Part shown: positions 3,243 to 22,086 of the stretch, in pieces
Numbering within the stretch: the first letter of the stretch is position 1
Layout of the letters: every line of letters starts with the position of its first letter
NCBI GenBank assembly: GCA_017746715.1
Contig: JAGHZQ010000013.1
Span: 1-64,000, forward strand
DNA length: 64,000 nt
Direction of reading: 5' to 3'
Origin: Cyanobacteria bacterium SBLK
GTDB lineage: Bacteria > Cyanobacteriota > Cyanobacteriia > Cyanobacteriales > Spirulinaceae
Made by a program: the position numbers and the translations under genes
The notes under the pieces: generated by a model
What the model was told of the DNA's origin: nothing
Databases searched by the model: none
The model's input: only the letters and a program-made list of their open reading frames with translations

Positions 3243-3448
3243 GTGAAGCGGACGAACCTTCGGGAGAACGCCAATCCTGTGATGCTAGGCAAGTCAGCCT
3301 TGCCCATAATTGAGGTCAGCCGTGGGACGAGTTTCCCCGTAGCGCTTTGAAAATCCACAAGCCGCGACGTAGCGGATGGGTCAAGTATGGGTCAAAAAAA
3401 ACGCCCTGCTGTTAAAGGAAAATAACCGCTTGTAAAGGGGTCTCCCCC
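3243..3448 (+). ncRNA. HEARO / omega-RNA-like structured RNA, orphan copy
   Basis: This ~205-bp stretch has no credible ORF and is packed with local pairings: GGCAAG-TCAGC-CTTGCC (3288-3304), paired segments around CGTGGGACGAG and AATCCACAAG, a CGTAGCGG element, a GTTA...TAAC hairpin near 3410-3425, and a closing GGGG-TCT-CCCC hairpin (3437-3447). It begins with GTGA, and its overall layout matches my memory of the HEARO RNA class (the guide-scaffold RNA of the IscB nuclease of IS200/IS605-like elements), which is frequent in filamentous cyanobacteria. An active element would have iscB directly downstream; here the next ~230 bp hold no such gene. The structured character is seen in the sequence; the class assignment rests on recall and needs an Rfam covariance search. 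Confidence 0.5.
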
Positions 3449-3680
3449 TCTTCTCCTCACACTATCAACACCTCTAATCCAAACCATGACGATGTACCGC
3501 AACACTCGTCTTTCATGGCAGGAGCCTGACGAGGTAAGTCAAACTCAACGGCGAAATTTGTTTTAGTAGTCCTTGAGTTGATGATTCGGGTGCAACTCCC
3601 GACTCTTGCCCCGCAAGATAAAACGCGATCGCACTGCCAAAAGCGATCGCTTTTCCTCAAATAACAAGGAGTAAAAAATT
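3449..3680. other. Non-coding gap between RNA candidate and first island gene
   Basis: No credible ORF is present. A T-arm-like hairpin, TCGGG-TGCAACT-CCCGA, lies at 3586-3602 and is followed by CTCTTGCC, but no matching acceptor or D-arm is found, so I do not call a tRNA. Two HIP1 copies near 3630-3655 flank an AAAAGCGATCGCTTTT palindrome. A good ribosome-binding site (AAGGAG) precedes the next gene. Confidence 0.5.
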
Positions 3681-3914
3681 ATGGTTGATACCGCAGTAAC
3701 CCCCACGACCGACACCCCCACCCCCACGACTGAAGACGAGACATGCGGTGCTCTTCACGATTATTTGCTGGGAGATGACACGTCAGAATATCGTTTGTCG
3801 ATCCAAAGTCGTGACGCTGAAAGTGTTGCGGCTGTCTTGTCTCCGTTTAATGCAGATGGCGAAACCGTTGACGTAATTATCACCCCAGACGGAATCAATA
3901 TCTTGGCCGATTAA
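3681..3914 (+). CDS. Small acidic hypothetical protein
   Basis: This 77-aa protein starts at an ATG with AAGGAG about 8 nt upstream, which supports the start. The N-terminal 20 residues are almost only Thr, Pro and acidic residues. The rest looks like a small alpha/beta fold ending in a VIITPDGINI strand pair. It is acidic and soluble, with no signal peptide or membrane segment. It is the first gene of a run of small plus-strand island genes separated by HIP1 hairpins. I do not recognise a family; it could be a small regulator or an anti-defence-type protein, but nothing in the sequence decides this. Confidence 0.65.
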   Translation: MVDTAVTPTTDTPTPTTEDETCGALHDYLLGDDTSEYRLSIQSRDAESVAAVLSPFNADGETVDVIITPDGINILAD

Positions 3915-3922
3915 ATTGGCCC

Positions 3923-3981
3923 GAGCGATCGCCTGTCGGGTTTGGCAGTGCGATCGCTCCTATCAGTTATCAGTTATCAGT
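3923..3981 (+). repeat. HIP1-pair hairpin plus CAGTTAT tandem tract (leader copy 1)
   Basis: GAGCGATCGC (3923-3932) pairs with GCGATCGCTC (3950-3959), with CTG/CAG extending the stem. Tandem TATCAGT copies follow up to the start codon of the 53-aa gene. About 40 bp of this block recur almost identically at 4147-4187 before the next gene, so the leader looks duplicated. Short dispersed repeats of this type are common in cyanobacterial intergenic DNA. Confidence 0.8.
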
Positions 3982-3982
3982 C

Positions 3983-4144
3983 ATGACAAAAACCAACAGA
4001 TATCGGATCTACCACGGGCAATGCCTTTTGAGATTGTTTGAGTCAGTGGACGAGGCAAAGTCTTGGATTGCTCGATCCTCCTTCCCTGAAGAATACGTTC
4101 TTCAGGATTCTTATACGAACACCTTCTTGTCCTTTCACACTTAA
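3983..4144 (+). CDS. 53-aa hypothetical protein (short gene)
   Basis: An ATG at 3983 opens a 53-codon frame ending in TAA at 4142-4144. The protein begins MTKTNRYRIYHGQCLLRLFE and continues DEAKSWIARSSFPEEY, giving a regular beta-beta-alpha composition with no low-complexity sequence. It lies exactly between two near-identical leader repeats, in the same position relative to copy 1 that the next gene holds relative to copy 2. This makes a real expressed small gene likely. The family is not recognised; the length and the strand-helix pattern would fit a small nucleic-acid-binding or inhibitor protein, which is only a guess. Confidence 0.6.
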   Translation: MTKTNRYRIYHGQCLLRLFESVDEAKSWIARSSFPEEYVLQDSYTNTFLSFHT

Positions 4145-4146
4145 GC

Positions 4147-4215
4147 AGATCGCCTGTCAGGTTTGGCAGTGCGATCGCTCCTTTCAGTCACCAGTCACCA
4201 GTCACCAGTTACAGA
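4147..4215 (+). repeat. HIP1-pair hairpin plus CAGTCAC tandem tract (leader copy 2)
   Basis: This near-copy of the 3923-3965 block differs at only a few positions. Its tandem tract is CAGTCAC (4185-4210) rather than CAGTTAT. It separates the 53-aa gene from the next ORF and would form a stable hairpin in the transcript. Confidence 0.8.
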
Positions 4216-4217
4216 CC

Positions 4218-4580
4218 ATGACAATAGTTGAAATTCCCGTTACAGAACTAGGAAATAAAAAAGGTAAGAAAAAAAAACAAGGACGAAAAATTCAGAAAGA
4301 TTTTTTTCTCAGTCGAGAAAGTAGAGAAAATTTTACTCTCTCGCATATTCCTTCTGGCGCACTGATTTTACATTTTCAGAAAGGGATTGCACAACTTAAT
4401 GATTGCACTCACCAATTTAGCACGCAGGAAATCAAGCAAATTGCAAATCGGATGCGAGAAATTCGGCAATTCTTCCCGCGATCGTGGGAAGAATTGCAAT
4501 CTCTTGATTTCGACTCACCCGAAGCGCTCGCACTGCGAGGGTGCATTACTGGAATACTTTTTCAAGTTGCAGACAGTTAA
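4218..4580 (+). CDS. Hypothetical protein with basic N-terminal tract
   Basis: I take the ATG at 4218 (120 aa) as the start. The longer frame from 4038 would be coded by the upstream repeat and is rejected. The protein has a short beta start (MTIVEIPVTELG) and a highly basic stretch (about residues 13-28, rich in Lys/Gly). A region with a beta-hairpin and a long helix (TQEIKQIANRMREIRQFF) follows, then SWEELQSLDF. The basic patch suggests nucleic-acid contact. There is no known domain that I recognise. It lies in the run of small genes upstream of the PP-loop and primase genes. Confidence 0.6.
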   Translation: MTIVEIPVTELGNKKGKKKKQGRKIQKDFFLSRESRENFTLSHIPSGALILHFQKGIAQLNDCTHQFSTQEIKQIANRMREIRQFFPRSWEELQSLDFDSPEALALRGCITGILFQVADS

Positions 4581-4624
4581 AAGCGACTCATTTTCGACCA
4601 TGTTGATGATATTCCTTTCTAACC

Positions 4625-4834
4625 ATGAAAATCATCATTTCCCTCGTTCTAACCCAAATATTCGGGATGCTGGCAATTATCGCCAAAGCCAACGATAACC
4701 CTGATTTTAACTTCATCATCGCGCTCTTAATTGTGAATTTGATTACGAACGCGATCGCCGCGATTAACCTTTTATTTAAAAGTAATGGCTCAAACAACCT
4801 TGTTCCCCGAACTTGTCCCTCGCGACATTTCTGA
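4625..4834 (+). CDS. Small two-helix membrane protein
   Basis: This 69-aa protein has two predicted membrane helices (about residues 3-22 and 28-48) joined by a short polar loop (KANDNPDFN), with a basic, Ser-rich tail. It overlaps the start of the downstream PP-loop gene by about 50 bp in another frame, so its last ~17 residues are constrained by that gene and the true end of the functional part may be earlier. No Shine-Dalgarno is obvious. Small hydrophobic proteins of this size in phage-like regions include holins and toxins; no specific signature supports either. Confidence 0.45.
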   Translation: MKIIISLVLTQIFGMLAIIAKANDNPDFNFIIALLIVNLITNAIAAINLLFKSNGSNNLVPRTCPSRHF

Positions 4835-5831
4835 AAATATCCCAAGACGAGAAAAAATCAACTTAATGATAGAACGACTTAGAAATTGTTCTATCCCTAA
4901 AAATGCCCCTCTCGTCTTCAGTTTTGGCTGTGGCGTTAACAGCATCGCCTTACTTTGCTGGGCAGTCGCTCATAAAATTAAAATTGATGCGATCTTCTTC
5001 GCTGACACTGGAAACGAAAAGCCACTAACTTACCACTGGCTAGACAAAATCAACCAATGGATCGCCGATAACAACCAAGATTTAACTGCCACAATCCCTC
5101 TGATAGAAACAGTTCGCTATCAACTCAAACCCATAACAAAAAGACGACGAAAAGGGGTCTTGGCAAAATGCAATCCTAAATATTGGAAAAAATGGGATTT
5201 CTTCGTCTTAGAACTTCTCCTCGTTATTTTTCAAGATGCTAGGCAATTTATTCGTTATACAACCCTCGGCGAAAATTGCCTCATTACCGAGACAATGCCA
5301 TCAAAAGCCTACGGTAAAGGTTCGTGTTCGCACAAATGGAAGATAACCCCCATTCATAAGGCGATCGCCCGAAGATTCCCCAACGCCCCCGATATTCGCC
5401 AGTGGATCGGCATTCATGCAGGAGAACCCCAGCGATTATTAATGGCAAACGGCACTCCCAAACCATTAATTGAAGATTTGAACAAAAACCAAAGGTTATT
5501 CGTTGAATATCCTTTGGTTATCAACAACCTTAACCAGCAAGCCTGTCAGCGATTGTGCTTGTCAGTATTCGGAGAGATCCCTCCTAAATCCTCATGCTGG
5601 TTTTGTCCTTCGCAACGGATCGCCGAAGTCCGAGAACTCAAAGAAACTTATCCCGACTTGTTTAAAGCTGGATGCTTTCTTGAAATAAATGCAATGGCAA
5701 ATTTAAAGGAAGGCGGAACGAAAGGACTCGGTAGAAATTTCGCTTGGAACGATATCGATGCCCTTACTCCCCTTGAATTAGCTGCTATTGAAGCCGAGAA
5801 AAGCAATCGTTCTTGTAACTGTCTCGAATAG
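4785..5831 (+). CDS. PAPS-reductase-like PP-loop (N-type ATP pyrophosphatase) protein
   Basis: This 348-aa protein has a PP-loop signature near residues 44-57 (VFSFGCGVNSIALL, the SGGxDS-type loop in variant form). It is followed by FFADTGNEKP, typical of PAPS reductase/DndC-like enzymes, and a late Cys pair in SSCWFCPSQR (about residues 268-275), as in Fe-S or zinc-binding members. Members of this superfamily adenylate and reduce or transfer sulfur in sulfate assimilation, tRNA thiolation or DNA phosphorothioation. No dnd partners lie nearby. The gene sits between small island genes and the primase-helicase, a setting common for phage-borne relatives, so a role in nucleic-acid modification is plausible but inferred. 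Confidence 0.75.
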   Translation: MAQTTLFPELVPRDISENIPRREKINLMIERLRNCSIPKNAPLVFSFGCGVNSIALLCWAVAHKIKIDAIFFADTGNEKPLTYHWLDKINQWIADNNQDLTATIPLIETVRYQLKPITKRRRKGVLAKCNPKYWKKWDFFVLELLLVIFQDARQFIRYTTLGENCLITETMPSKAYGKGSCSHKWKITPIHKAIARRFPNAPDIRQWIGIHAGEPQRLLMANGTPKPLIEDLNKNQRLFVEYPLVINNLNQQACQRLCLSVFGEIPPKSSCWFCPSQRIAEVRELKETYPDLFKAGCFLEINAMANLKEGGTKGLGRNFAWNDIDALTPLELAAIEAEKSNRSCNCLE

Positions 5832-5836
5832 TAAAA

Positions 5837-5871
5837 GCGATCGCGTTTCCGTAGCAGGGAAATGCGATCGC
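5837..5871 (+). terminator. HIP1-arm hairpin between PP-loop gene and primase gene
   Basis: GCGATCGC-g-TTTCC pairs with GGAAA-t-GCGATCGC over about 14 bp (one G.U) around a 7-nt loop. There is no T-tract, so it may attenuate or stabilise transcripts rather than terminate them. It is the same design as the hairpins at 3923 and 4147. Confidence 0.5.
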
Positions 5872-5897
5872 CTGTCCAAATAATTTAACCAAAAACT

Positions 5898-8800
5898 ATG
5901 TTATCAACAGATGTCAAAAATGTTTGTGAAACTTCCTCGATTTTACCACAAACACCCGGAAAAACAAGACTCAAAACCAAACATTTAGAAGAACTTCGCA
6001 ACAGCGCGATCGACGATGAAATCGCTTATCTCAACTTCCAAAGTTTAGACGGAGACGCTCCCTATGACCGTCTTTTTCCTTTCCTTCCCGATAAAGATCG
6101 CCGCAACGACGGAAGAGTCAGAGAAGGCATATTAAAGAACTACCGCCACGTAGAAAATGGAGGATGGTGGGTCAAGTCTTTAGACCCCGAAACCGGAGAG
6201 GAAAAAGAATTCGGACAATTCAAACCCGATACACCGAGAACCAACGAAAAAGGCAAACTAATCAAATACGAAACCCCCCCCAAAAGTACCTCCGAAGCCT
6301 TTTTCTTAGAACCCTCCCGCAAAGCATGGGAAGCGATCGCCAAACGCTATAAAAAGAAATGTCCCGACACAGAACCCACAAATCAATTTTGGCAATGGGT
6401 CAAGCGAGAAAAAATCCCCATCATCCTCACCGAAGGAGCGAAAAAAGCCGCCGCACAATTAAGCGCGGGATACGCAGCGATCGCCCTTGTTGGCGTGTGG
6501 AATGGCTGCCGAAAAGTCACGATTCCCGAATACTTCCCCAATGCCCAAAAAGAAGTAAGCGAAAAAAACGGAGAAACCCGATACTTTATCTTTAAACTAA
6601 TCCCCGACTTAGAGAAATTTGCGGGGAGAACCATTTTCATTACCTTCGATCAAGACAGTGACCCCGACACTCTCACAAAAGTTGCAACCGCCATTAAACG
6701 CACAACCAAACTTTTAGAAGAAGCCGAAAGCAAAGTCAAAATCTCACAATGGGATAGCCGCTTGGGTAAAGGAGCAGATGATGTTATTTTTAACCACGGT
6801 GCTAAAATTTTTCACGAATTTCTCGTAAGTGCAAAGTCAATCAAACGAATTAATTTTGAGAAATTTAACGCTAAAAAGAATGCAGAAAATGAGCTAAAAC
6901 TAGAAAAAATTAAGCCTCATATAGGGTTGAAAGAAGTTAAAATACTCCCTTACCATAAAATGAATTATGTTGAAAAAGCATATATGGATTTATTTGCGGG
7001 TGAATACTGGATAACAATCGACGGACAAATGCACCAATGGAACGGGAAATATTACGAACCTGTTGAAGATGTCGCTATAGAACGAGAGATCGTTTATTGG
7101 CTGAAAGGATACGAAGAACCCATTTATATTAAAGGAGAAATCAGCGATCGTGTTTACCGATATACCAAAAGCCACCACGTCACCGAGATATTGAAATGGG
7201 CAAAACAAAGCACCGGAATCGATCCTAAACTTACCAATCCTAAAGGCTTAAACTTAGCCAATGGAATTCTTAAAATTAAATGGGACAAAGAGCAACTCAA
7301 CTATGAATTAATCCCCCACAATCCACAACAATATTATACCTACTGTTCCGATACCATATTTGACCCAGATGCTCCTACAGAAGATTGTGACAAGTTGCTT
7401 TCTGTCCTCGAACCCGACCAACGAGACATCTTTCTAAAACTAGTAGCCGCTAGCGTTGACCTCCAGACATTACGCGGATTTTCTAAGATTGGACGCATCC
7501 CCGCGGCGCTCTGTATCGGGCAGGGAAGTAACGGAAAAGATAGCTTACGAGAAACCGTGCGCCTACTATTTGGAAATCAAGGCATTGGTTCTTACTCCTT
7601 CACCGACTTTAAACAATACGATCGGGGGACAAAGTTCGAGATTGCTTCCTTAATTAATAATGTGAGACTTTCGTGGAGTGCAGAAAATACCAAGTTCTTA
7701 TCGCTCGATAATTTAATATCTTTGCGAAAAGCAATATCGGGCGAAACCATGACCTCTCGCAGTTTGCATAAGGAAGGGAAGCAGTTTGATTGTAATACCG
7801 TCTTTTTCTTCAATGTTAATGAACTGCCGTTAATTCATGGGGATATGACAGCGATTAAAAGTCGCTATACTATTCTCGAATTTAATAAGACAATTAAGAA
7901 AAATGCCAATCCTAACCGAGGGGAAATTGAAGAAGATCCTCGTTTTAAGCACAATAAGAACTTCATCAAAAATAATATTCTCTCAGCCTTCCTCAATCGC
8001 GTTCTCGATGCTCTGTCCCGATTGACCGAGGAAGGAATAGACACCACTGCCACAGAAGCAGCCTTTGAGGAAGCCAGACGAGAAAATAATCACCTCATTA
8101 CCTTCTGTGATGATATGGGTTTGGTTGAGGCAGAAGGCGTGCAAACCCCCATCAAAGACATTTACGATCGCCTCCTGTGGTGGTACGAGCATGAAAATGG
8201 AGTTCTTTCCTTCCTTGGCGAACGGAAGATATGGGAAGAGCAAACACACCCATTAGATAAAAATATCAAGGCTATTAACCAACTCACCCCGAGGCTCGAA
8301 AAATTATTTCCCCGATCGACCCGAGGGCGATCGGCTTCAGTGCGATATATCGAGGGAATTTCCTTCAATCCCGAAAAGGCGCTCATTTGCGTCACGCCCT
8401 TTCATCAGAAAGCTGAAAACCCAGATAATGGAAGCATTACAGTCAATGACTCAGTGAACAATCATTGCGTCAATAGTTTGTCATCTCCCCCATCCAATGC
8501 GTCATCTATACAAATTTCATCGTCATTGGCAAATGACAACAGCAAATCGCCAATGACGATGGATGACTCACTCATGACGCGCTCTGAAACACTTACATCG
8601 CAAAAGTTTCAGGGAAATAATGACACACTGACGCAAGAGTCAGAGGAAACTGAAAAACTCATCATGCAGCTCGAGCAATACATGAACAGTTGCCAATCGA
8701 TCGCGGAATATGACGAGATGGAGCAACTTCCCTTTTTCTCCCCCGAACTGCATCAGCAAGCATGGCAACGCCTCGATCTCTCGAAAAGGTCGCAAATTCA

Positions 8801-9359
8801 AAAATGGTCAAGCGATCGCGATGTCCAAAAAGAACAGATAACAGCCATTGTTGAAATGTTGAAGGATTGCGAAAACGCGGACATCTACAAAGAGGTCGCA
8901 GGTTTGACGAGTTCTATTCGCGATGCGCTCTTAGACGAAGGGGTCTCTTGCCCTGACCTCTTAGAGGAAGCAATCTCTCGATTGTCCCCAGAACAGCAAC
9001 AAGCGATCGATCGCATTCGCAATTCCCCACCTGCCTCGCCAGATTCTCTCGATACTGATGGACATTTCCAAAAAGGCGATCCGGTTGTCGATCTCACCCA
9101 TCCAAAATGGGGGATAGGAACGATAACGGATATCTCCCCAGAAGACATTAAGGTGCAATTTCCCCGTTATGCCCAACTGCCCATGCAATGCCAGCCGGAC
9201 AATTTAGCCAAGGAAGGCGATCGCGTGTCGTGGCATAAAGGCGATCGCGTTGTCTTTGTCGAGATAGCCAGCTTGCAGCAAGGGCAGCCCGTGGAAGTAA
9301 AAGGAGATAGTCTAATTATGCCCATGCCTGTAAATTTGGAGGAATTGCGATGTTATTAA
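5898..9359 (+). CDS. DUF3854 primase-helicase (phage/plasmid replication protein)
   Basis: This 1153-aa protein has a TOPRIM-like DUF3854 region (about residues 170-330: ILTEGAKKAAAQL, FITFDQDSDP). A D5/P4-type SF3-like helicase follows, with Walker A GQGSNGKDS near 541 and a Walker B/sensor stretch VFFFNVNELP near 635. A winged-helix-like C-terminal domain lies at about 733-830 (FCDDMGL ... NIKAINQL ... RYIEGISF). Then come a Ser/Asn/Asp-rich linker, a helical region and an SH3/KOW-like tail near 1058 (KGDPVVDLTHPKWG). Proteins of this type prime and unwind DNA for phage- or plasmid-type replication. Its 733-830 domain is closely matched by the C-terminus of the BRO-N protein at 13104-13979. 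It is the central replication gene of the island. Confidence 0.85.
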   Translation: MLSTDVKNVCETSSILPQTPGKTRLKTKHLEELRNSAIDDEIAYLNFQSLDGDAPYDRLFPFLPDKDRRNDGRVREGILKNYRHVENGGWWVKSLDPETGEEKEFGQFKPDTPRTNEKGKLIKYETPPKSTSEAFFLEPSRKAWEAIAKRYKKKCPDTEPTNQFWQWVKREKIPIILTEGAKKAAAQLSAGYAAIALVGVWNGCRKVTIPEYFPNAQKEVSEKNGETRYFIFKLIPDLEKFAGRTIFITFDQDSDPDTLTKVATAIKRTTKLLEEAESKVKISQWDSRLGKGADDVIFNHGAKIFHEFLVSAKSIKRINFEKFNAKKNAENELKLEKIKPHIGLKEVKILPYHKMNYVEKAYMDLFAGEYWITIDGQMHQWNGKYYEPVEDVAIEREIVYWLKGYEEPIYIKGEISDRVYRYTKSHHVTEILKWAKQSTGIDPKLTNPKGLNLANGILKIKWDKEQLNYELIPHNPQQYYTYCSDTIFDPDAPTEDCDKLLSVLEPDQRDIFLKLVAASVDLQTLRGFSKIGRIPAALCIGQGSNGKDSLRETVRLLFGNQGIGSYSFTDFKQYDRGTKFEIASLINNVRLSWSAENTKFLSLDNLISLRKAISGETMTSRSLHKEGKQFDCNTVFFFNVNELPLIHGDMTAIKSRYTILEFNKTIKKNANPNRGEIEEDPRFKHNKNFIKNNILSAFLNRVLDALSRLTEEGIDTTATEAAFEEARRENNHLITFCDDMGLVEAEGVQTPIKDIYDRLLWWYEHENGVLSFLGERKIWEEQTHPLDKNIKAINQLTPRLEKLFPRSTRGRSASVRYIEGISFNPEKALICVTPFHQKAENPDNGSITVNDSVNNHCVNSLSSPPSNASSIQISSSLANDNSKSPMTMDDSLMTRSETLTSQKFQGNNDTLTQESEETEKLIMQLEQYMNSCQSIAEYDEMEQLPFFSPELHQQAWQRLDLSKRSQIQKWSSDRDVQKEQITAIVEMLKDCENADIYKEVAGLTSSIRDALLDEGVSCPDLLEEAISRLSPEQQQAIDRIRNSPPASPDSLDTDGHFQKGDPVVDLTHPKWGIGTITDISPEDIKVQFPRYAQLPMQCQPDNLAKEGDRVSWHKGDRVVFVEIASLQQGQPVEVKGDSLIMPMPVNLEELRCY

Positions 9360-9781
9360 AAAGACCCGCAGATTATCCTTATTCCGACATGAGACCAATT
9401 TTTGAGTTAAACAAAATAATTAAATCTCATCAGCAACAAGTTAAGGATTTAGGCGCGACTCAAATCAAGGAACTTATAGAAAGTGAAATTCCCAGCGATC
9501 GCCTTCTCTCTTTGCCCTGTTACGCCTTGTGGTTTAGCGGAGATGTAGAACTACAAAAATGTAACTGTTATATGGTTGTAGGGCGTTTACGGTTTTGGAT
9601 TCACCTGCACGAAAATTTAAGCATTAGTAGTCCTTATATTGTGTGGTGGATTCGATATCGTCACCCCAACGATCCAATCAATAATTATCAGTCAGAATTT
9701 GCCGCACGTCGATATCTTCTTGATACAATCTTGCAAATTTTTGAGCATTATAAGCCTAACGAACTAATCTCTATCCATTAA
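9350..9781 (+). CDS. Hypothetical protein coupled to the primase gene
   Basis: This 143-aa protein starts inside the last codons of the primase-helicase gene (about 10-bp overlap), so translation is probably coupled. GGAGG lies about 8 nt before its ATG. It is a mixed alpha/beta soluble protein. Its conserved-looking features are CNCYMVVGRLRFWIHL and PYIVWWIRYRHP, rich in Trp/Tyr and suggesting a beta-sheet core, followed by an amphipathic C-terminal helix (LLDTILQIFEHYK). I recognise no family. The overlap argues for a role in the same replication module. Confidence 0.65.
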   Translation: MLLKRPADYPYSDMRPIFELNKIIKSHQQQVKDLGATQIKELIESEIPSDRLLSLPCYALWFSGDVELQKCNCYMVVGRLRFWIHLHENLSISSPYIVWWIRYRHPNDPINNYQSEFAARRYLLDTILQIFEHYKPNELISIH

Positions 9782-9783
9782 AA

Positions 9784-9999
9784 ATGGGACATTTTACCTG
9801 TGAACAAAATTTAGCCTTCGATCGCCGCATTAAATTGCGCGATCGTCAGAAAGTGCTGGTTATCCAATTGCAAAAGGCATTTGAGGATTATATGCGTGCT
9901 CCCGATCGCCAGAAAGCAAAAAAGCTCGAGCGACTAATGGAAATTAACGATAATGTTAATTTTCTAATTATTTTCAATACAAAAATTCTTTCAGGTTAA
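9784..9999 (+). CDS. Small helical hypothetical protein
   Basis: This 71-aa protein starts 2 bp after the preceding stop codon. It is mostly one charged helix (KLRDRQKVLVIQLQKAFEDY, then RQKAKKLERLMEIND) with a short hydrophobic end, consistent with a coiled-coil partner protein. Its stop codon touches the stop of the convergent minus-strand gene, so the two transcription units meet here. No known family is recognised. Confidence 0.55.
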   Translation: MGHFTCEQNLAFDRRIKLRDRQKVLVIQLQKAFEDYMRAPDRQKAKKLERLMEINDNVNFLIIFNTKILSG

Positions 10000-10520
10000 T
10001 TATCGCGTTCCACTCGCTCTAATAAAATTTCGCGAATGGATTTTTCGGTATTGAGCAAATCCATAATCGGGGAAGTCTTCAAAAACTGCCGCATCTCTTC
10101 TGAGTTTGTATTTAATAGTGTTTTGTTAAAAAATTTCAAAGATTCGATTACTCCTTGCTGTTGCTTAATAATCAATTTATAATTATTAAGCTCATTAAAA
10201 AACTTTCTGTTTTCAGCGACTAACCTTTTATTTTCTTTTTCTTTTTCCTCACTTGAGGCTTGAAACTCTTCAAGTAAAGAATTATATCCATTAACAATCT
10301 GTCCTTGTCCTTTTTCAATACTTTCTAGTCGTTTTCCTTCTTGCTTCCGCCACCATATCCAGCAAGTTCCCACGCCCGCACCAAATACCCCCAGCACTTC
10401 AATCCATTGCAAAATAGTACCTGGGTTTATCATTTGTAGTAAATAAATTTCCGAAGCACCAAATAATAATAAGACTGAAATGTCTAAGTTTTTTAATATT
10501 TTGCTAAACATTTTAAACAA
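9996..10520 (-). CDS. Membrane-anchored coiled-coil protein (unknown)
   Basis: This 174-aa protein has two hydrophobic segments near the N-terminus (about residues 13-32 and 39-58, ending in WIWW). A long charged coiled coil follows (about 60-130, EEKEKENKRLVAENRKFF), then a helical tail. This is the layout of a membrane-tethered rod, as in spanin-like, phage structural or cell-envelope proteins. It is the last gene of a four-gene minus-strand unit and overlaps the previous gene by 8 bp. Its layout (membrane helices plus coiled coil) is the mirror image of the plus-strand gene at 14971. The function is unknown. Confidence 0.65.
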   Translation of the reverse strand: MFKMFSKILKNLDISVLLLFGASEIYLLQMINPGTILQWIEVLGVFGAGVGTCWIWWRKQEGKRLESIEKGQGQIVNGYNSLLEEFQASSEEKEKENKRLVAENRKFFNELNNYKLIIKQQQGVIESLKFFNKTLLNTNSEEMRQFLKTSPIMDLLNTEKSIREILLERVERDN

Positions 10521-12280: not shown

Positions 12281-12297
12281 TTCCACCGGGAATAGAC

Positions 12298-14809: not shown

Positions 14810-14824
14810 CTAAATTGACTTACC

Positions 14825-14970: not shown

Positions 14971-15357
14971 ATGGCAAAAGGCAAAGATAACCCAGAACTC
15001 CAACGGCTGCGCTATCAAGCTCAACTCAAACAGCAAATCAAGAAATTACAAGAAGACAATCAAGCATTGAAGAGAGATAATGATTTGCTCAATGAGAAAA
15101 TTATTAAATTGCAACAAGAACAAAACAATTTAATCGATCGTCTTGCAAAAAAAGCTGTAGAGAACAAACAGCTTTTAGAGACAGGAAATAGCTATTCTTA
15201 TGATATCGTAATCCCCTTTGCTGTACTCGCGGCAATTATTTATTTTATGTATAGTATTTCTGTTTCTTTGTCAAAAGCTATTGCTTTTCTTCTACTTGTT
15301 ATAGTTATAATAATGGGTTTTTATATTTACAAAATGAAAAAACAACAACAAAAATAA
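14971..15357 (+). CDS. Coiled-coil membrane protein, first gene of the virion-like operon
   Basis: This 128-aa protein is a long polar coiled coil (about residues 8-70, LKQQIKKLQEDNQALKRDND) followed by two adjacent membrane helices (about 77-95 and 100-121) and a Lys/Gln tail. AGGAAGGAAA upstream of the ATG is a strong ribosome-binding site. The gene heads a run of closely spaced genes up to 22025. Its coiled-coil-plus-membrane layout resembles the minus-strand gene at 9996 with the order reversed, so the two might form an envelope-spanning pair; that is inference. Confidence 0.7.
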   Translation: MAKGKDNPELQRLRYQAQLKQQIKKLQEDNQALKRDNDLLNEKIIKLQQEQNNLIDRLAKKAVENKQLLETGNSYSYDIVIPFAVLAAIIYFMYSISVSLSKAIAFLLLVIVIIMGFYIYKMKKQQQK

Positions 15358-15360
15358 ATT

Positions 15361-17025
15361 ATGGCTTGTACCGCTATTGATAAAAATCTACTAAAACAAG
15401 AACAAGAAGAGTTACTAGCAGTCATTAACGCAAATATTCCACAGATAGAGCAAAGCGATCGCTGGGATGTTAGCGGAAAAATTGACTGGAATGAAACGGG
15501 GCAGCAAGCGACACCTTTTGGTGTATTTATCGCCACATGGGGAGGAGTGGGGCTAGAATCTGGACGTGATGACACCAAAATAATAGAAGCTCTAGAAAAA
15601 ATTAGCGACCGAATTCAAACAACAATTACTCGAATTACTGGTAATTCTGTTAATTGTCCCGCTAAAAAAAACGAATCATTGCTTTGCTTTAATAGCTTTT
15701 TTCTTCAAGAAACTGTAACTTTTCTTAGGGAATATCGAATTTTTATAGAAGAATTAGCAGCCCATGATGTTTGGAAAAGGCTATACGGACAAGAATCATT
15801 TAATATTATATGGATAAAATTACCTCAAGGATTTATTGAAGAAGTAGCAAGATTAAAAGAAAAGCTGAGAAATTTAACCGACAGTATTAGGGTTAGAATA
15901 GGAACTTTAATCAACAAAGGAAATAATTGTGAAGGAGACTCACCACCCGAGGAAGAACCCCCACCCGAAAGTGACGAAGCATGCGAAAAAATCGCCAACG
16001 CCCTAGAAAAACTCGCCGATAAAGACTTTAGCTGTTTAAAAGAAGAAGAATTTCTCGACGGAGTAAACCATCTCGCATCCCTCAACCTCGAAAACGCAGA
16101 AGAAATCGGAGAACTCAAAGCCGAAATAACAAGCCTAAAAGAAGACATCGCCGCCATCAAAAAAGCCGTAGGCGTGGACGATTTACCCCTAACAACTTTT
16201 GAATGTATCACCGACGAAAATTGCAAACCCATCGTTCTCGAATCAATCCCAGCAATACAAGCATGGTCGATCCAACAACTCGACGCACTCATCGGTAAAT
16301 TCCCCCTCAAAATCACAATCAAAGACACCGAACTCGACGAAAAAGGCGACCAATCCATCGAACTCGAATGGCAAAATTTAGCAGAACTTTTAGCCGACTT
16401 AACCGGCTTAATATACGTCACAGAAACCCAAGTCGATGCAACCTTTAACGCCACCATGCGAAACCTCATGGAAACTGCCAGTACCAAGAAAATGATGGTT
16501 AAACAAGACGCTTGCATGAGTACCCTTTGCGCGTGGATCGGGCATCCCACCACCCAGAAGAAAATCAAAATACCCTCAACCTTTAACCCCTTCGTCAAAA
16601 AAACCGCCGACATCCTAAAATCGACATTGATCGAAATGGTTGTAGATGTCCCCAGCGAAGAAGATAGCGGAAATTTTCAGCACGTCATCGGACACATCTT
16701 AAACATCGACCAAATTTGCCAAAGATTCGTACATCGCGGCAATCCGCAAGACCTCAAAGGCAGCGCGATGAACCTCCTCACTCAAATGTTACCCAAAAAA
16801 GATCGCCCACAAAACGACGGCGACGGTGACGACGATCCTCCCTTACAAGACGACGGCGACGATCGCCGAGGCTTCGACGAATTCATGCTACTCGTTCAAG
16901 ATGGCTTTATCGCAGAACCCGGCATGAAAGACACCATTAACCCCTACGGGCGTAAATTCGATCGCCGCGCTCGCATCACAGAAGTTGGCATCGACGGAGA
17001 ATCACGGGAGGACATTACAGAATAA
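15361..17025 (+). CDS. Large hypothetical protein A of the virion-like operon
   Basis: This 554-aa, acidic, largely helical protein starts 3 bp after the preceding gene. Residues 200-230 form a Pro/Glu linker (SPPEEEPPPESDEACEK), which divides an N-terminal helical domain from a central coiled coil (ENAEEIGELKAEITSLKED) and a C-terminal domain. The latter includes KKMMVKQDACMSTLCAWIGH and an acidic low-complexity segment (about 480-500). Its tail reads FDRRARITEVGIDGESREDI. It has no signal peptide or membrane helix. The stop codon overlaps the next ATG by one base, so proteins A and B are probably made in equal amounts. No family is recognised. Confidence 0.7.
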   Translation: MACTAIDKNLLKQEQEELLAVINANIPQIEQSDRWDVSGKIDWNETGQQATPFGVFIATWGGVGLESGRDDTKIIEALEKISDRIQTTITRITGNSVNCPAKKNESLLCFNSFFLQETVTFLREYRIFIEELAAHDVWKRLYGQESFNIIWIKLPQGFIEEVARLKEKLRNLTDSIRVRIGTLINKGNNCEGDSPPEEEPPPESDEACEKIANALEKLADKDFSCLKEEEFLDGVNHLASLNLENAEEIGELKAEITSLKEDIAAIKKAVGVDDLPLTTFECITDENCKPIVLESIPAIQAWSIQQLDALIGKFPLKITIKDTELDEKGDQSIELEWQNLAELLADLTGLIYVTETQVDATFNATMRNLMETASTKKMMVKQDACMSTLCAWIGHPTTQKKIKIPSTFNPFVKKTADILKSTLIEMVVDVPSEEDSGNFQHVIGHILNIDQICQRFVHRGNPQDLKGSAMNLLTQMLPKKDRPQNDGDGDDDPPLQDDGDDRRGFDEFMLLVQDGFIAEPGMKDTINPYGRKFDRRARITEVGIDGESREDITE

Positions 17026-18698
17026 TGGGATTATCGCTTACATTTGACGACCTCATCTCTCACGAAGTCCGATCCGCGATCGGGGAAAGAGTCATCGGTT
17101 CGCCAGAAGAACCCCTCGACGATGGAAACATCGATTGGCTGCCCGACTGGATCGAAGGACCCTTAAAAGGAGGCATCCAATGGGTACGGAATACCTTTGG
17201 CGGTTTCGTCGGCTTCGTTTGGAACAAACTTAAAGGTTTAGCCAGTCGTATCGGAGAATTTACCGCCGCCGAAGCATGGGGGGCATTCGTTGGCTTTAAA
17301 GAATTTATCCTTAACTTTAACTTCACTCAAAGCGACGAAGCGATCGACCAGACAACCGAACAGTTAATGCAAACCATCGCCGCCCAACTCGGTTCTACAG
17401 TCGGATGTTTAGCCGGGCAAGTCGTAGGCGGCGGATTATTTGCTCTTGGCTATGTCGCCACATCCAAACTGATCCAGCTTGACCCCATTGCCATCAAAAA
17501 AGGGCTAAAGCGTCAGGGTAAGGCTCTCGTTGGTCAAATCATGGATGACCTCGCTACAAACCTTGGAGCACTTGCCCGTACTGTCGCCATCCAAGGCACT
17601 CAAGCCTTACTTTTGCAAGCATACAAACACGGACGTAACTTCGCGGTGTGGGCATATCACAAACTCAAAGGCGTGCCAGATGAAGAAATCGAAAAAATCA
17701 AAGAAAGCCTGTACGGTCCCGGCGCTCAGCCGTTTATTATCAATGAAAAAGTCGAAGATAGTATTGCTAACATTGATAACAAACTGGTTCGAACTTTTGC
17801 TGAAAACGCATGGGACGAATTTAATGAATGTTTTAATGAGATTGGCTTTGTGCTTGCAGATGCAACAGACAAAGCTGAAGAGCAAGAAGATATGCAGGAA
17901 GCCGTCCTCGGTGTGGAACGCACCATAGCCCTCACCCCCGATCGCACCGCTCCAGAGGAAACTCTCGTGCTTGCTGGCAATGAGGAATCGCTCAAAACGC
18001 AAGCCACGACTGTAATGGCAGTTCACCAACTCCTCGAAAATCGCGATTTGCATCGGCTGCACGATCGCAGAAAAGCCAACGAACTCCCCGCCAAACCGCC
18101 AAAATCCACACTAACCCTGAAAATTCAGTATTACCCCTTGCCAGACAAACCGTTCTCTCGCACCAGATGGGAAACGGAGGGAAAAGACGAAAACTTGTGG
18201 ACAGAACCCGATATCAAAATCCCCTTCGTAGATCCAAGCAAACTCACATGGGCAAAAATTAAGCGGTTAGCAGGTGGAACCGTCGGCTTTAACTTTGGGA
18301 AATATGCAGCACGCGGAAAACTCGGAGGAAGACCCATCACCGTATTTGGCGCAACCGAAGCCGATGCAGTAAACTGGCTCGAATCATTGGCGGAACTTTC
18401 CGAAGCCGAACTAACTGGACTCTACTCTGGTGGCAGGCGCAGAAAAACCCCCAATCCTCGCGACAACGCTTTCGATGAGCAATATAAAACCGTAAGAGTG
18501 TATCCCGCGTTCGCCACCATTACCGCCCAACGCCTGACACCCGGAAAAGGACGAGCCAGCTTACAAGGAGAATTCAGCTTGTACCAGCAAGCGATCGATT
18601 TGTGGACACCTGACGAGCCACTGTTCACCAAGGAAAAACTTGATGATGCCAAGAGGTATCATACGCCTCTGTCTCAGTTGGGGATAGGTTTCACATAA
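17025..18698 (+). CDS. Large hypothetical protein B of the virion-like operon
   Basis: This 557-aa protein overlaps protein A by one base. An N-terminal Trp-rich amphipathic region (GIQWVRNTFGGFVGFVWNKL) and a Gly/Ala-rich hydrophobic stretch (about residues 127-155, AGQVVGGGLFALGYVA) suggest membrane interaction. A helical middle (about 165-330) is followed by a beta-rich C-terminal part. That part includes STLTLKIQYYPLP and GRPITVFGATEADAVNWLESL, then a short RVYPAFATITAQRLTPGKG strand region. The overall form, membrane-active N-terminus and beta C-terminus, resembles tape-measure or pore-forming proteins in outline only. No family is recognised. Confidence 0.7.
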   Translation: MGLSLTFDDLISHEVRSAIGERVIGSPEEPLDDGNIDWLPDWIEGPLKGGIQWVRNTFGGFVGFVWNKLKGLASRIGEFTAAEAWGAFVGFKEFILNFNFTQSDEAIDQTTEQLMQTIAAQLGSTVGCLAGQVVGGGLFALGYVATSKLIQLDPIAIKKGLKRQGKALVGQIMDDLATNLGALARTVAIQGTQALLLQAYKHGRNFAVWAYHKLKGVPDEEIEKIKESLYGPGAQPFIINEKVEDSIANIDNKLVRTFAENAWDEFNECFNEIGFVLADATDKAEEQEDMQEAVLGVERTIALTPDRTAPEETLVLAGNEESLKTQATTVMAVHQLLENRDLHRLHDRRKANELPAKPPKSTLTLKIQYYPLPDKPFSRTRWETEGKDENLWTEPDIKIPFVDPSKLTWAKIKRLAGGTVGFNFGKYAARGKLGGRPITVFGATEADAVNWLESLAELSEAELTGLYSGGRRRKTPNPRDNAFDEQYKTVRVYPAFATITAQRLTPGKGRASLQGEFSLYQQAIDLWTPDEPLFTKEKLDDAKRYHTPLSQLGIGFT

Positions 18699-18774
18699 TT
18701 TTGTGTTGTGCCACCAAATCAGAAAATTGGTAGTACAATGGGTCATAGCGTAACAACAACACTCAGATAATCTC

Positions 18775-19092
18775 ATGGCACAAATAAAAGGAACTGACAA
18801 CACAGCAAAAGAAGCTGTAGACGCTTTGCTCGCCGATATCGAACGAATCCGACAACTTTCTTTCAAATACGGCGGAAAATTGCGAGGAAACGCCAAAGCC
18901 AAAGGGGAAATGCCGCAAATTGTGACTCAATTTGCGGCTCAAATTAGTAACACCACGGGGGAAATTAGCCTAGCTGTAGGACTTACGATTCCTTGCATTC
19001 GAACTCCCAACGGAGAAGGCTATCTAACCAGTCCCGATCTAGAGTTTGATGATGCTCCCGCTCCCGCTCCCGCTCCCGCTCCTAATCCATAA
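18775..19092 (+). CDS. Small hypothetical protein with (PA)n tail
   Basis: This 105-aa protein has a helical first half (AKEAVDALLADIERIRQLSF), a short beta region (TGEISLAVGLTIPCIRTPNG) and a Pro-Ala repeat tail. The tail is encoded by five tandem GCTCCC hexamers (about 19051-19080), a site prone to slippage. There are 76 bp of non-coding DNA before it, with TACAAT near 18733 as a possible -10 box. A weak hairpin (AGGGTAGAA/TTCTGCCCT, 19101-19120) followed by TTT lies after its stop. It may therefore have its own promoter and partial termination. The function is unknown. Confidence 0.6.
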   Translation: MAQIKGTDNTAKEAVDALLADIERIRQLSFKYGGKLRGNAKAKGEMPQIVTQFAAQISNTTGEISLAVGLTIPCIRTPNGEGYLTSPDLEFDDAPAPAPAPAPNP

Positions 19093-19128
19093 AATACTTT
19101 AGGGTAGAATTTTCTGCCCTTTTAAAAA

Positions 19129-19506
19129 GTGCAACGCGTCCAAAAACTCGACGAGGGAAAATTCAAAATTTGGTGGGATGAAAAGCCTAGAGAAAGTTTA
19201 ACTCTTGACTTCAACCCCATCATCGAATATTTCAACCTAACCGGAGAATTTTGCTTGCTCCACTGGCAAGCCCGACCCCGAGGACTGAGAAGATGGGGAA
19301 TATACGACAGTGCCAGCGATAACTATTACCCCTTCGATAGCGCTCGCTTTTCCCGTTCCTCCCTCATTGGTCAAACCCTCCAAATCAACGAGAACCAACA
19401 TAAAACTGTCCCCACCGCAGTCCTCTTATTTGAGGGCAAACTAATCGTCAAGCCCCTTGACAAAATTAAAATTGTAAAAGAATGGATAAAACCGGACAAA
19501 TCTTAG
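19129..19506 (+). CDS. Hypothetical protein of the virion-like operon
   Basis: This 125-aa protein starts at a GTG (19129). It is beta-rich with many aromatics (FKIWWDEKPRESLTLDFNP, EFCLLHWQARPRGLRRWGIY, NYYPFDSARF). It ends in a TAVLLFEGKLIVKPL strand pair and a basic helix. The pattern fits a small beta-sandwich or baseplate/receptor-binding accessory protein, but no family is recognised. It overlaps the next gene by 25 bp, which implies coupled translation with the virion-domain protein. The start codon is the least certain part. Confidence 0.55.
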   Translation: MQRVQKLDEGKFKIWWDEKPRESLTLDFNPIIEYFNLTGEFCLLHWQARPRGLRRWGIYDSASDNYYPFDSARFSRSSLIGQTLQINENQHKTVPTAVLLFEGKLIVKPLDKIKIVKEWIKPDKS

Positions 19507-20237
19507 CCGAACTCACCCCCGTTCACGGCATAGGAATCGTGACATTGTATCGGGGCGATCTCGACCATCAAACCGCTTTTAAAAATTATGCCTTTTCCGG
19601 ACAAATTACGAATCTTAGACTAAACGCTCGTATTCAAAATTCCTCTCCCTCTGGAGACTTCCCACCACAATTTTATGATAATTACTCCCGTTATCAAGGT
19701 GTCCCCACAATTCAAAACTTACTTGGCGAGTCTAATCATCTCATAATTCTTTTGCAGCAAGGGGACTTTCTCCCATGGATAGAAATCGGGAAAATTCCTC
19801 TAATTAATAATAGTAATACAGAATATTCTTTAATAGACTTACTTTATTTTTATCCCTTAGATTTTTTTCACAGTCGAGCTAGTATAGGTGTTAAAGTTAC
19901 AAAAAATTTATTACATGAGGATAAACTCACATTTTGGGGGGGCTATCAAGAACAATATACACCCAACAACCAAAACAATTTTTCTTTTGTCAATTCGATA
20001 AACATTATGGATACCCCAAAAATCATTTTACAGCCTAACGAAAACAGAAAAAATCTTGTTATTTTTAATTCGGGAGAAAAAACAGTTTATATCGCTCTTA
20101 ATGCAAACGCGACGACAAACAATTATAGTTATATCCTCCCACCTAATTTTACCCACGAAATCAAATACTCTGGAATAGTGAGCGCAATTTGCAAACCTGC
20201 CGAATTGACATCTCTGCAAATCACAGAAATTTTATAA
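19482..20237 (+). CDS. Virion-like protein with C-terminal phage beta domain
   Basis: This 251-aa protein has an N-terminal beta-rich portion (VHGIGIVTLYRGDL, AFKNYAFSGQITNLRL). The last ~75 residues read IILQPNENRKNLVIFNSGEK, VYIALN, a strand with SYILPPNFTHEIKY, GIVSAI and SLQITEIL. This NxNRKxLxIFN ... VYIxLG ... YxxxLxPxxxYE ... GxIxxI ... VTEx pattern is the small beta domain found at the end of many tailed-phage virion proteins. I recognise it from pattern, not from a search. It is the clearest structural-protein signature in the operon and the main reason for calling the module virion-like. The start overlaps the previous gene. Confidence 0.65.
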   Translation: MDKTGQILAELTPVHGIGIVTLYRGDLDHQTAFKNYAFSGQITNLRLNARIQNSSPSGDFPPQFYDNYSRYQGVPTIQNLLGESNHLIILLQQGDFLPWIEIGKIPLINNSNTEYSLIDLLYFYPLDFFHSRASIGVKVTKNLLHEDKLTFWGGYQEQYTPNNQNNFSFVNSINIMDTPKIILQPNENRKNLVIFNSGEKTVYIALNANATTNNYSYILPPNFTHEIKYSGIVSAICKPAELTSLQITEIL

Positions 20238-20238
20238 A

Positions 20239-21363
20239 ATGCCCTTAAACCTCAAACATCCCTGCTGCCAACCGCAAGAAGAAACTGACCTAAGAACGGG
20301 TGCAGTGACGAAAAGCGATCGCCCTCATGGCTGGATAGCGAGAGCAAAATGGCGTGGGCGTTCTTCAGAATACCGAATTTATACCCCAGAAAGTTACACT
20401 GAATACAAATGGAAAAACAACTTACCCCAGCATATTGCAGGATATTCAGAGAATTTGTATTTTTATGGCAGCAAAACAACCATTAAATGTGTATGTGATA
20501 TCGCAACCTATGAAACTCATCGAGGAGATTTATTTCCTTATATTCAATATATTGAAGCAATAACTATTGCAGGAACAATAGACACTCAAAAAAATATTCA
20601 CAATACGACAACAGGCAAAACATTGTGGGGATTAAGACCTACAAAAGATCCTGAAGAAGACGATATTAACACTCCTGACGGAATCATAGAAAATATTGTC
20701 TTGGACTTACTAGAAGAACCCGACGAACCTTATGGAAAACTAAAAGCCTACAGAGGTCCCCGCAAAGCCTTTGAATGGTGGGAGGTTCGACAAAGACATC
20801 TAGATCGATACTTTGAAAACTCTACCGGTGTTCCTTTTGGCGCTTATGATGCTGAAGGAAATCCTACGACTTGTGACGCTTTGGGAGTCCCGTACTGGCT
20901 CAAAGGAGACCCGGAAAACTCGAAAACCATTCACGGTATTTATATCTGCAAAGGACAATCTGAAACGCAGGAAATTCAAAAAGGTAGCCCGAGCGATATG
21001 GGCATTCGTATCGCCAGAAGAGATGCGGATGCTTATAATTGCGGCGATTTATGGAAAGGTAAACAAGCCTTTTATAATCTTTGTTCCTTAAAATTAGTTC
21101 CTGAAATTATTGAGAAATGCCATGATTTAAGAGAGACCTCTCGCGATATTGAATGGGAATGGAAGCAACGCGCTCCTAAACTGCATGAGACAACTGTTAA
21201 TGCTTTGGTTGGAGAGAGAGAAACAGAAAAGCGCGATCGCATTCTCAGCCGTCCAATCGAATTTGAATTTGGCAGCATTGAAGAGATAGAATTTATCTAT
21301 TGTAACTGCTGTGATTGCTGTGCCATCGGGCAAACCGTTTTAGATTTATTTGAAGGGATTTAA
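20239..21363 (+). CDS. Cys-rich hypothetical protein of the virion-like operon
   Basis: This 374-aa protein begins one base after the previous stop codon. Cysteines cluster at both ends (KHPCCQPQEE near the N-terminus; YCNCCDCCAIG near the C-terminus), suggesting metal binding or disulfide clamping. Between them lie beta-rich segments (GWIARAKWRGRSSEYRIYTP, LFPYIQYIEAITIAGT), a loop with KAYRGPRKAFEWWEVRQRHL and a helical region. Its stop overlaps the next ATG by one base. The length, position between two virion-like genes and Cys distribution suggest a tail-tip or fibre component. No family is recognised and the role is inferred. Confidence 0.6.
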   Translation: MPLNLKHPCCQPQEETDLRTGAVTKSDRPHGWIARAKWRGRSSEYRIYTPESYTEYKWKNNLPQHIAGYSENLYFYGSKTTIKCVCDIATYETHRGDLFPYIQYIEAITIAGTIDTQKNIHNTTTGKTLWGLRPTKDPEEDDINTPDGIIENIVLDLLEEPDEPYGKLKAYRGPRKAFEWWEVRQRHLDRYFENSTGVPFGAYDAEGNPTTCDALGVPYWLKGDPENSKTIHGIYICKGQSETQEIQKGSPSDMGIRIARRDADAYNCGDLWKGKQAFYNLCSLKLVPEIIEKCHDLRETSRDIEWEWKQRAPKLHETTVNALVGERETEKRDRILSRPIEFEFGSIEEIEFIYCNCCDCCAIGQTVLDLFEGI

Positions 21364-22025
21364 TGATGCAATTTTATAATTTGAACGATACTAGACAAAT
21401 TATTCAGGAGGAAGTTAATAGGGAAATGTCCGATCTCGCCTCGCCTTTAGATGTCGGCGATGTTATCTACTCCCTGAGCGAAAAGCTCCCCAACACTCCG
21501 ATTATCTCTCGCAAACGCTTCCTTTGGATAAGACTCGATCTTTTTGCCGGAACCATTGGAAGTCAGCAATCTCTCGCCGACTTGAGAGACGATCTCCTAG
21601 AACTTTTCTATTTTCATCTGGGCGGCACTGCCAGCGAATGGGAGCAGGGGCAGGCTCTCCCTATTGCCGATTATCGCGGACGCGCTTTAAGAATTGCTGG
21701 AAAAGGGAAAGATTTGGATCATCATCTCCTTGGTTCTTTGGCGGGGAAAGAACGCCATCGGTTGACAATTGCCGAGATACCCTATCACAAGCACGGTGGA
21801 GGAAATCACGCTCATTTGCAAAGGTCGAAAGTAACTCCCAACAAACACGCTGTAGATAACGGCGATCTGCCAAAAATAATGTTCCATGAAGACATGGGGG
21901 GAGTGAACGTTGGGACTCACGAATCGGGTCCTATCATCTTGGGAGAAGGTGGAAATATGTTTCATCCTACCCTCGGACCCTCAGCTTATCTGGCAGCGAT
22001 TGCTTTTCTAGGGGTGAGAGAATAA
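21363..22025 (+). CDS. Tail-collar-like protein, last gene of the operon
   Basis: This 220-aa protein's second half resembles the phage tail-collar domain. It has LPIADYRGRALRIAGKG, the ERHRLTIAEIPYHKHGGGNH strand-loop with clustered His (tail-fibre tip type, HxHGG), and an end HPTLGPSAYLAAIAFLGVRE corresponding to the usual 'PPYLALNYII' finish. The N-terminal half is helical. Collar-type tips of phage fibres often bind metal ions through such His loops. It overlaps the previous gene by one base and ends 17 bp before the tRNA-Thr fragment, so the element's edge lies directly behind it. Confidence 0.7.
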   Translation: MMQFYNLNDTRQIIQEEVNREMSDLASPLDVGDVIYSLSEKLPNTPIISRKRFLWIRLDLFAGTIGSQQSLADLRDDLLELFYFHLGGTASEWEQGQALPIADYRGRALRIAGKGKDLDHHLLGSLAGKERHRLTIAEIPYHKHGGGNHAHLQRSKVTPNKHAVDNGDLPKIMFHEDMGGVNVGTHESGPIILGEGGNMFHPTLGPSAYLAAIAFLGVRE

Positions 22026-22042
22026 AAAATTGTTTTGTAAGT

Positions 22043-22086
22043 CCTTGGTAAGGGTGAGGTCACGAGTTCAATCCTCGTCGAGGGCT
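22043..22086 (+). other. 3' half of tRNA-Thr(GGT): probable attachment-site remnant
   Basis: The segment reads as the last 44 nt of a tRNA-Thr. It runs from the anticodon loop (TTGGTAA, anticodon GGT at 22047-22049) through the 3' anticodon strand (GGGTG), a normal variable loop, a perfect T-arm (ACGAG-TTCAATC-CTCGT) and the acceptor end CGAGGGCT. The 5' half is absent: the bases upstream do not pair with GGGTG or with the acceptor strand. Such a half gene, cut at the anticodon loop, is the usual footprint of tRNA-targeted integration. Confidence 0.8.

Follow-up and report, generated by a model that had tools for sequence, protein, structure and literature searches.

Among the mobile elements described so far, the nearest published idea to the element reported here is that of the Charybdis elements (PMC12324425, Kirchberger and Luque). 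The element in question occupies the left part of a 64,000-nucleotide stretch of the genome of Cyanobacteria bacterium SBLK (assembly GCA_017746715.1, contig JAGHZQ010000013.1, positions 1 to 64,000; hereafter the window) and has relatives in many other cyanobacteria. In the accessible portion of their description, the Charybdis elements resemble it in being circular and integrating, in carrying a receptor-binding-like structural module together with a putative coat protein whose fold is new, and in having no hallmark virus or plasmid protein. Compared by description, they are of about 4.6 kb, marine and assigned to a putative Poseidoniales archaeal host, whereas the elements studied here measure 12.5-34 kb, reside in cyanobacteria and possess their own integrase, a replication helicase and transfer RNA (tRNA) sites. 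A literature search found no description of this family, which is likely undescribed so far: its defining core is new, the genes by which it integrates and replicates belong to familiar types, and its particle is putative.

Other described systems share single parts with the family. The pR1SE-like plasmids, in the available text on them (PMC10818511), are plasmid-like replicons with conserved structural proteins mostly of unknown fold, no virus capsid and a HerA/VirB4-like ATPase, as found in some members here. They belong to haloarchaea, and the S8 peptidase, WD40 and S-layer-like proteins given for their core were not noticed in the present family, for which no direct comparison was made; unlike them, the present elements have phage-type fibres and a tyrosine integrase. 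The tycheposons and marine-cyanobacterial satellites are, in the portions of the reports at hand (PMC11389934, PMC10187409), cyanobacterial mobile elements with tyrosine recombinases, and tRNA sites are described there for related picocyanobacterial elements; by description they differ from the present elements, which combine a conserved P554-P557-P223 core with fibre genes. DUF3854 proteins are presented as plasmid replication proteins of cyanobacteria in the accessible part of PMC10079941, and the CyRepA plasmids pCC5.2 and pSYSA treated there have in common with our family a DUF3854 replication protein, a free circular form and a cyanobacterial host. The CyRepA replication proteins carry a C-terminal DEXDc domain, whereas that of the window has D5_N and some relatives use AAA_25-type helicases. 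Finally, temperate tailed phages and phage-plasmids share with the family an integrase, an XRE repressor, a BRO antirepressor and fibre and minor-tail-type proteins, but the elements tested gave no Terminase_6N, Phage_capsid or Phage_portal match.

Core genes and their spread among cyanobacteria

As judged from gene content and order, comparison of loci showed a near-constant pair of genes, P554 and P557, accompanied mostly by P223 or another basic protein of about 200 residues and by changeable phage-type fibre genes. In the window, the pair consists of P554 (15361..17025, plus strand), assigned by clustering, and P557 (17025..18698, plus strand), two large proteins without significant Pfam or PHROG match, the stop codon of the former overlapping the start of the latter. 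The core module also includes, all on the minus strand, (i) P223 (11137..11808), found by profile search, a basic protein with an internal duplication and a candidate coat or genome-binding particle protein, (ii) P83 (10910..11137; cluster 6), a small protein directly after P223 that is acidic by its calculated isoelectric point (pI), and (iii) a P136 family protein (10513..10923) that shares 28% identity with the member of locus L051 across 87 columns (E 2e-5) and has the same place in the gene order. Furthermore, a tail-fibre/collar-like protein (21363..22025, plus strand; PHROG 8763 'tail protein', E 1.4e-11), likely a receptor-binding tip, and a beta-domain protein (19482..20237, plus strand; cluster 4), which BLAST groups with proteins of 26 other loci, are encoded. 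The original prediction, made from the letters of the window, had offered as one option an element that keeps only a fibre or injection-like part; the fibre-like genes are there, and the word 'only' fails on the conserved core of P554, P557, P223, P83 and P136.

The sample searched comprised 388 genomes of the class, in 160 genera. A P557 profile matched 60 of the 388 genomes and 41 of the 160 genera (56 genomes with the P557 of the window as query), and an independent P223 profile search gave 66 places in 50 genomes. As many as 55 of these 66 places lie at most 12 kb from a P557 place, counted with the P557 places of the window-query search (56 genomes) and not of the profile search (60). Both genes occur in 43 genomes, P557 alone in 13, P223 alone in 7 and neither in 325. 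Among 72,556 plasmids, P557 matched only the Tolypothrix PCC 7601 plasmid unnamed14, NZ_CP064893.1, and the P557 of a relative gave the same result; a set of 50,697 phage records matched neither the P223 of the window nor the P557 of one relative.

Gene order was compared in 42 loci, with gene clusters built by single-linkage BLAST. Of these loci, 40 were chosen, mostly for their better scores, from the 75 P557 places of the window-query search; the other two are the window and the Tolypothrix plasmid. P554 is present in 40 of the 42 loci and stands directly upstream of P557 in 35, with a median gap of -1 base. The two reading frames overlap further in L071 and L078, P557 lies near a contig end in L059 and L077, and P554 is nearby yet separated or inverted in L011, L060 and L062. 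The clusters of the following genes were counted in the same set: P223 (30 loci), the beta domain (27, in a cluster that may combine families), integrase (19), XRE (17), P83 (16), P89 (16) and one of three replication clusters (16). Named hosts, from 10 loci, include Leptolyngbya, Limnothrix, Stenomitos and cf. Phormidesmis. A small FHA-domain protein was also seen in L049, L050, L094 and L104; in all of these but L050 it has a membrane span at its C-terminus.

The core proteins resemble little in the libraries: against Pfam and PHROGs they gave just weak rows, and nothing significant in PDB. The structural model of P223 is confident (predicted local distance difference test score, pLDDT, 95.1; predicted template-modelling score, pTM, 0.89), and no significant fold match to it was found in PDB or BFVD. 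In the model of P557, positions 99-234 form long helices and the C-terminal domain is well modelled, with no convincing match in BFVD; fold comparison of the P223 and P557 models gave no match to the HK97 capsid. P554 has a variable N-terminal half and a better conserved C-terminal half. In six of the 42 loci a protein called c15, with c21 in five of these six, stands in place of P223 and P83, to which the replacements are unrelated in sequence. A pI of at least 9.5 was calculated for 21 of 31 P223 proteins and all six c15 proteins, against 14.5% of 242 other proteins of similar size. One element (L077:7879-9155, genome G259) has two tandem P223 genes.

Ends of the element and mobility of its relatives

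The original prediction had delimited an island of about 19 kb, at 3243-22086. Its right end stands, within a base: positions 22043..22087 (plus strand) reproduce the 3' half of tRNA-Thr(GGT) exactly, over 45 bp, and form the right attachment site, attR. Its left end does not, and the attachment sites led us to reject 3243-22086 as the entire element. The 45-bp sequence occurs at just two places in the 7.44-Mb assembly, in the window, which is the start of contig C25, and on contig C92 (L012:11802-11846, minus strand), within an intact tRNA-Thr detected by ARAGORN (L012:11803-11874). The orientation of the two copies fits integration into the 3' half of the tRNA gene. A tyrosine integrase gene lies at L012:10545-11705, 97 bp from this tRNA-Thr, and its product is 26% identical over the full length to the integrase of one relative. 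The end of C92 is identical to the first 61 bases of the window, and one reading frame continues across. Joined in this way, the element measures 33,872 bp, with a left-hand part of about 11.8 kb on C92 (L012:1-11846) that holds the integrase, an ASCH protein, small genes and the intact tRNA-Thr. The 61-bp overlap belongs to a repeat that recurs in contig C110, which is identical to C25 over 119 bp and to C92 over 98 bp, so that the join is inferred only; it is supported by the attachment pair, found at only these two places of the genome. Positions 1..22087 of the window are thus likely the larger part of a tRNA-inserted element of about 34 kb. The absence of an integrase noted in the original prediction holds for the window and not for the element, and the look beyond the left end that it had advised did yield, through the inferred join, both an intact tRNA-Thr and an integrase. 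The tRNA-Val at 22299-22370 was rejected as the integration target, being outside attR.

Mobility is seen in relatives. In genome G303, the 18,288-bp contig C5 is 100% identical to a chromosomal copy and circularly permuted with respect to it; the chromosomal copy is flanked by 50-bp direct repeats corresponding to the 3' half of tRNA-Cys(gca), and the ends of C5 meet inside the chromosomal copy, with one base shared. From this permuted identity and from the 50-bp core, present once on C5, it follows that C5 represents the excised element, as a circle or as head-to-tail multimers. Several relatives (e.g. G344, G148 and G269) match in the 50-bp site alone, as would be the case for an empty site. 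Genome G173 has two head-to-tail units of 15,374 bp with three identical 57-bp repeats that match the 3' end of tRNA-Leu(taa). The contig ends of L049, L104 and L106 are identical over 127, 127 and 64 bp, giving circles of 12,548, 19,288 and 18,176 bp, and the Tolypothrix plasmid is a circular record of 20,757 bp, typed as non-mobilizable. In all, the circle status of 20 contigs or records, some fetched in part, was checked.

Virion-type genes and the nature of the element

A total of 149 proteins from the elements of relatives and from the C92 part were scanned, of which the best 25 of 105 PHROG families and 25 of 38 Pfam families were considered, so that single matches could hide; a second set consisted of 149 scanned neighbours of P557 (150 of 266 candidates listed), with the best 25 of 127 PHROG families. 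The element proteins include integrases (six matches to PHROG 1), regulators, helicase-primases and FHA proteins, besides collagen-like repeats and an M15 peptidase. Element proteins and P557 neighbours also matched PHROGs of the minor-tail, tail-fibre, baseplate-connector, head-decoration and virion-structural types, so that fibre or receptor-binding proteins are present in relatives as in the window. No terminase, portal or capsid is among these best families in either set, nor among the ten proteins of the 12.5-kb circle, whose scan was listed in full. The same holds for the scanned proteins of the window, in agreement with the original prediction that capsid, portal and terminase genes are missing from it.

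Direct Pfam searches covered 37 genomes or records, that is, 36 element-bearing genomes and the plasmid record. Terminase_6N (PF03237) was found at 15 places in 8 of the 37, never on a contig with an element save in G088, where it is 0.8 Mb away; the HK97 capsid (Phage_capsid, PF05065) was found in none, in a setting where capsid families differ widely; and the portal (Phage_portal, PF04860) was found in one (G173:C2, the element being on C1). Some elements are on short contigs, where a missing piece is possible. As precisely bounded or circular relatives of 12.5-20.8 kb have the same core and are also without known capsid or packaging genes, their absence is a family trait. A tailed-prophage remnant was rejected on this ground, and the phage-plasmid remnant, one of the options in the original prediction, is not supported for the same reason, the relatives sharing both core and absences; the evidence favours another of its options, a new kind of element.

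We consider it somewhat probable that these elements form a family of autonomous temperate virus-like elements, whose putative particles would be encoded by the elements themselves and consist of proteins with no likeness to known capsids. In such a life cycle, the integrase would excise and insert the element, and the DUF3854/D5 protein would replicate the circle, other helicase types doing so in relatives. XRE and BRO/Ant proteins control phage-type switches, and here the XRE regulator and the BRO antirepressor would control the change between a quiet and an active state. The P223-type basic protein, with its acidic partner P83, could coat or condense the DNA; P554 and P557 could form a delivery end, with P557, a candidate membrane-active or DNA-delivery protein, acting on the membrane; exchangeable fibre proteins would select the host; and the M15 peptidase that a few members encode adjacent to a small membrane protein could open the cell. 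A more specific proposal, which we hold tentatively and regard as rather doubtful, is a new lineage of temperate DNA viruses that is neither HK97-fold nor jelly-roll, with a basic coat of unmatched fold (P223 or its stand-ins), an acidic assembly partner, no dedicated packaging motor and a P554-P557 tip bearing swapped fibre modules of tailed phages. If the particle reading is true, about 15% of the sampled cyanobacterial genomes (60/388) carry a virus-like element that is missed by finders based on capsid, portal and terminase, and P223 is a coat candidate of unmatched fold ready for structure work. The presence of members in named strains (Tolypothrix PCC 7601 and Leptolyngbya strains) makes the question directly testable. 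Even as satellites or vesicle plasmids, the elements would be a common means by which genes flow among cyanobacteria, and one that inserts at specific sites.

Several observations weigh against a family with its own particles. Particle, expression and infection are proposals from genes. A free circular form is present in relatives only, no circle having been observed for the copy of the window, whose extent moreover depends on a join within a repeat. P223 is missing from 12 of the 42 loci by BLAST clustering, including L079, where it lies just outside the fetched stretch and has an internal stop; neither P223 nor c15 is found in six loci, among them L079 and the short contigs L047, L053 and L066. 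Neither c15 nor the corresponding protein of L106 shows a sequence relation to P223. A hydrophobic segment is above threshold in the P557 of five of seven elements and below it in the P557 of the window and of the plasmid, which weakens the membrane-active reading of P557. In a Walker A scan of seven elements, an ATPase beyond the replication helicases and one chance integrase match was seen only in L011 and L106; L053 has a relative of the translocase-like ATPase of L011, and as such ATPases were seen in these three loci only, no packaging motor common to the family is apparent. Few loci have a pair of lysis type: in the G173 element, an M15-peptidase-like gene adjoins that of a small membrane protein, and an M15-type motif was found in 2 of the 42 loci. 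In IMG/VR, no relative was found with exact peptide seeds, taken from one P554 and three P557 of relatives, or with the P223 profile, the sole match being the contig L083, tailed-phage-like and of 55.5 kb, which was rejected as a relative, its 56-residue match at 31% identity to P223 being taken as chance. Lastly, no match resembling a spacer of clustered regularly interspaced short palindromic repeats (CRISPR) was found for window positions 9000-22092 in its own genome or, over 96 genomes, for a portion of the G303 element.

The strongest rival, which we judge unlikely, is a new group of phage satellites that replicate and integrate by themselves and are packaged in the capsids of an unrelated helper, with P554, P557, P223 and the fibres rebuilding or retargeting the helper particle. 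The size of the relatives (12.5-20.8 kb), their integrase, tRNA site and phage-type fibres and the lack of recognised capsid or packaging genes would all suit a satellite, and satellites of cyanobacteria, the tycheposons, are known from the accessible parts of PMC11389934 and PMC10187409. However, 28 of the 36 host genomes are without Terminase_6N and none has an HK97-capsid match, G303 with its free and integrated forms being among them, although helpers may be outside the genome or of other families. Besides, no terminase small subunit, capsid-size or packaging-redirecting gene was recognised among the families listed, and the conserved core seems to us larger than an accessory retargeting kit needs.

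Ranked second, and improbable in our view, is a self-transmitting plasmid that travels in membrane vesicles, pR1SE-like in principle, where P557 and small membrane proteins would load the DNA and fibres would target the vesicles. The several small membrane proteins, the hydrophobic segment of P557 in most elements and the want of a recognised capsid or constant packaging ATPase speak for it, as do two likenesses to the pR1SE-like plasmids as far as these are described in the available text of PMC10818511: a HerA/FtsK-like ATPase in some members, and in P554 a variable N-terminal and conserved C-terminal half, as in their ORF6. Set against this, inspection by eye showed no obvious export signal in the core proteins, both P223 and c15 are basic and look cytosolic, and the phage-type fibre modules, together with the M15 peptidase of some members, suggest a phage-like release. 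Least likely, and quite improbable, is an integrative plasmid with a module that serves the host, such as an apparatus for contact or adhesion, or a weapon resembling a tailocin. The particles being a proposal and the Tolypothrix record being typed as a non-mobilizable plasmid, such an explanation has something in its favour, but no sheath, tube, secretion-channel or relaxase is among the best 25 of 105 PHROG and 25 of 38 Pfam families of the 149 proteins, and precise circularisation with a patchy spread over 41 genera points to a selfish element. The virus-like reading is the favoured one.

Other genes of the element

The gene list of the original prediction, which named a DUF3854 primase-helicase, PP-loop, XRE and BRO proteins, a coiled-coil membrane protein, two large unknowns and beta-domain, Cys-rich and collar-like proteins, was borne out; the Pfam scans of the window omitted the cargo genes at 3-3113. 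In brief, the genes not yet described include, on the plus strand: a PP-loop/PAPS-reductase-like protein (4785..5831; PHROG 424, E 2e-30, Pfam below cut-off); a CyRepA-like replication protein of 1153 residues with DUF3854 and D5_N primase-helicase domains (5898..9359; E 1.9e-37 and 3.3e-9); P89, a very basic small protein (11926..12195; cluster 7); an XRE/Cro-type regulator (12786..13028; HTH_3, E 8.6e-12); a BRO-N antirepressor (13056..13979; E 9.4e-21); a coiled-coil protein with two membrane spans predicted from its sequence (14971..15357); and a Cys-rich protein of 374 residues with no family in library scans (20239..21363). The antirepressor has a domain in common with the replication protein: its C-terminal 100 or so residues and residues 732-829 of the latter show 41% identity (E 1e-19), and perhaps the two proteins compete for the DNA site of the replication protein. 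A protein encoded downstream of P136 (9996..10520, minus strand) looks coiled-coil-like by eye, and similarity between it and the small membrane protein of the Tolypothrix plasmid was not found.

Several genes are likely cargo or passengers. A Uma2 endonuclease-like gene (14102..14809, plus strand), likely a passenger, is one of a dispersed family, with relatives of 67-79% DNA identity elsewhere in the genome, at 14 places. At the contig junction, the N-terminal part of a large protein, likely cargo, is encoded at 3..2015 (minus strand) and continues in L012:3-1970; we take it from its sequence to be of haemagglutinin type or CHAT-like. This large gene (window 3-2015 / L012:3-3730) has a repeat in common with contigs C110 and C50, and near it is a second gene that is presumably CHAT-like. 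The haemagglutinin/CHAT-like gene and its neighbours at the junction are probably cargo, which could be linked to defence. A secreted protein (2047..2631, plus strand) is also likely cargo, and its sorting motif is, we assume, PEP-CTERM-like.

Near position 3243 lie an inverted repeat that is perfect over 16 bp and a pair of direct repeats of 57 nt, which are 89% alike and rich in GCGATCGC (3168-3211, 3927-3983 and 4148-4204). On C92, a protein of 188 residues with predicted membrane spans and no Walker A motif (L012:7140-7706) has an ending that by eye resembles the FtsK/HerA-like ATPase of the Tolypothrix plasmid, and is possibly an ATPase that has lost its core. A 60-bp segment of the window (12244-12303) has counterparts of 82% identity on contigs C112 and C14.

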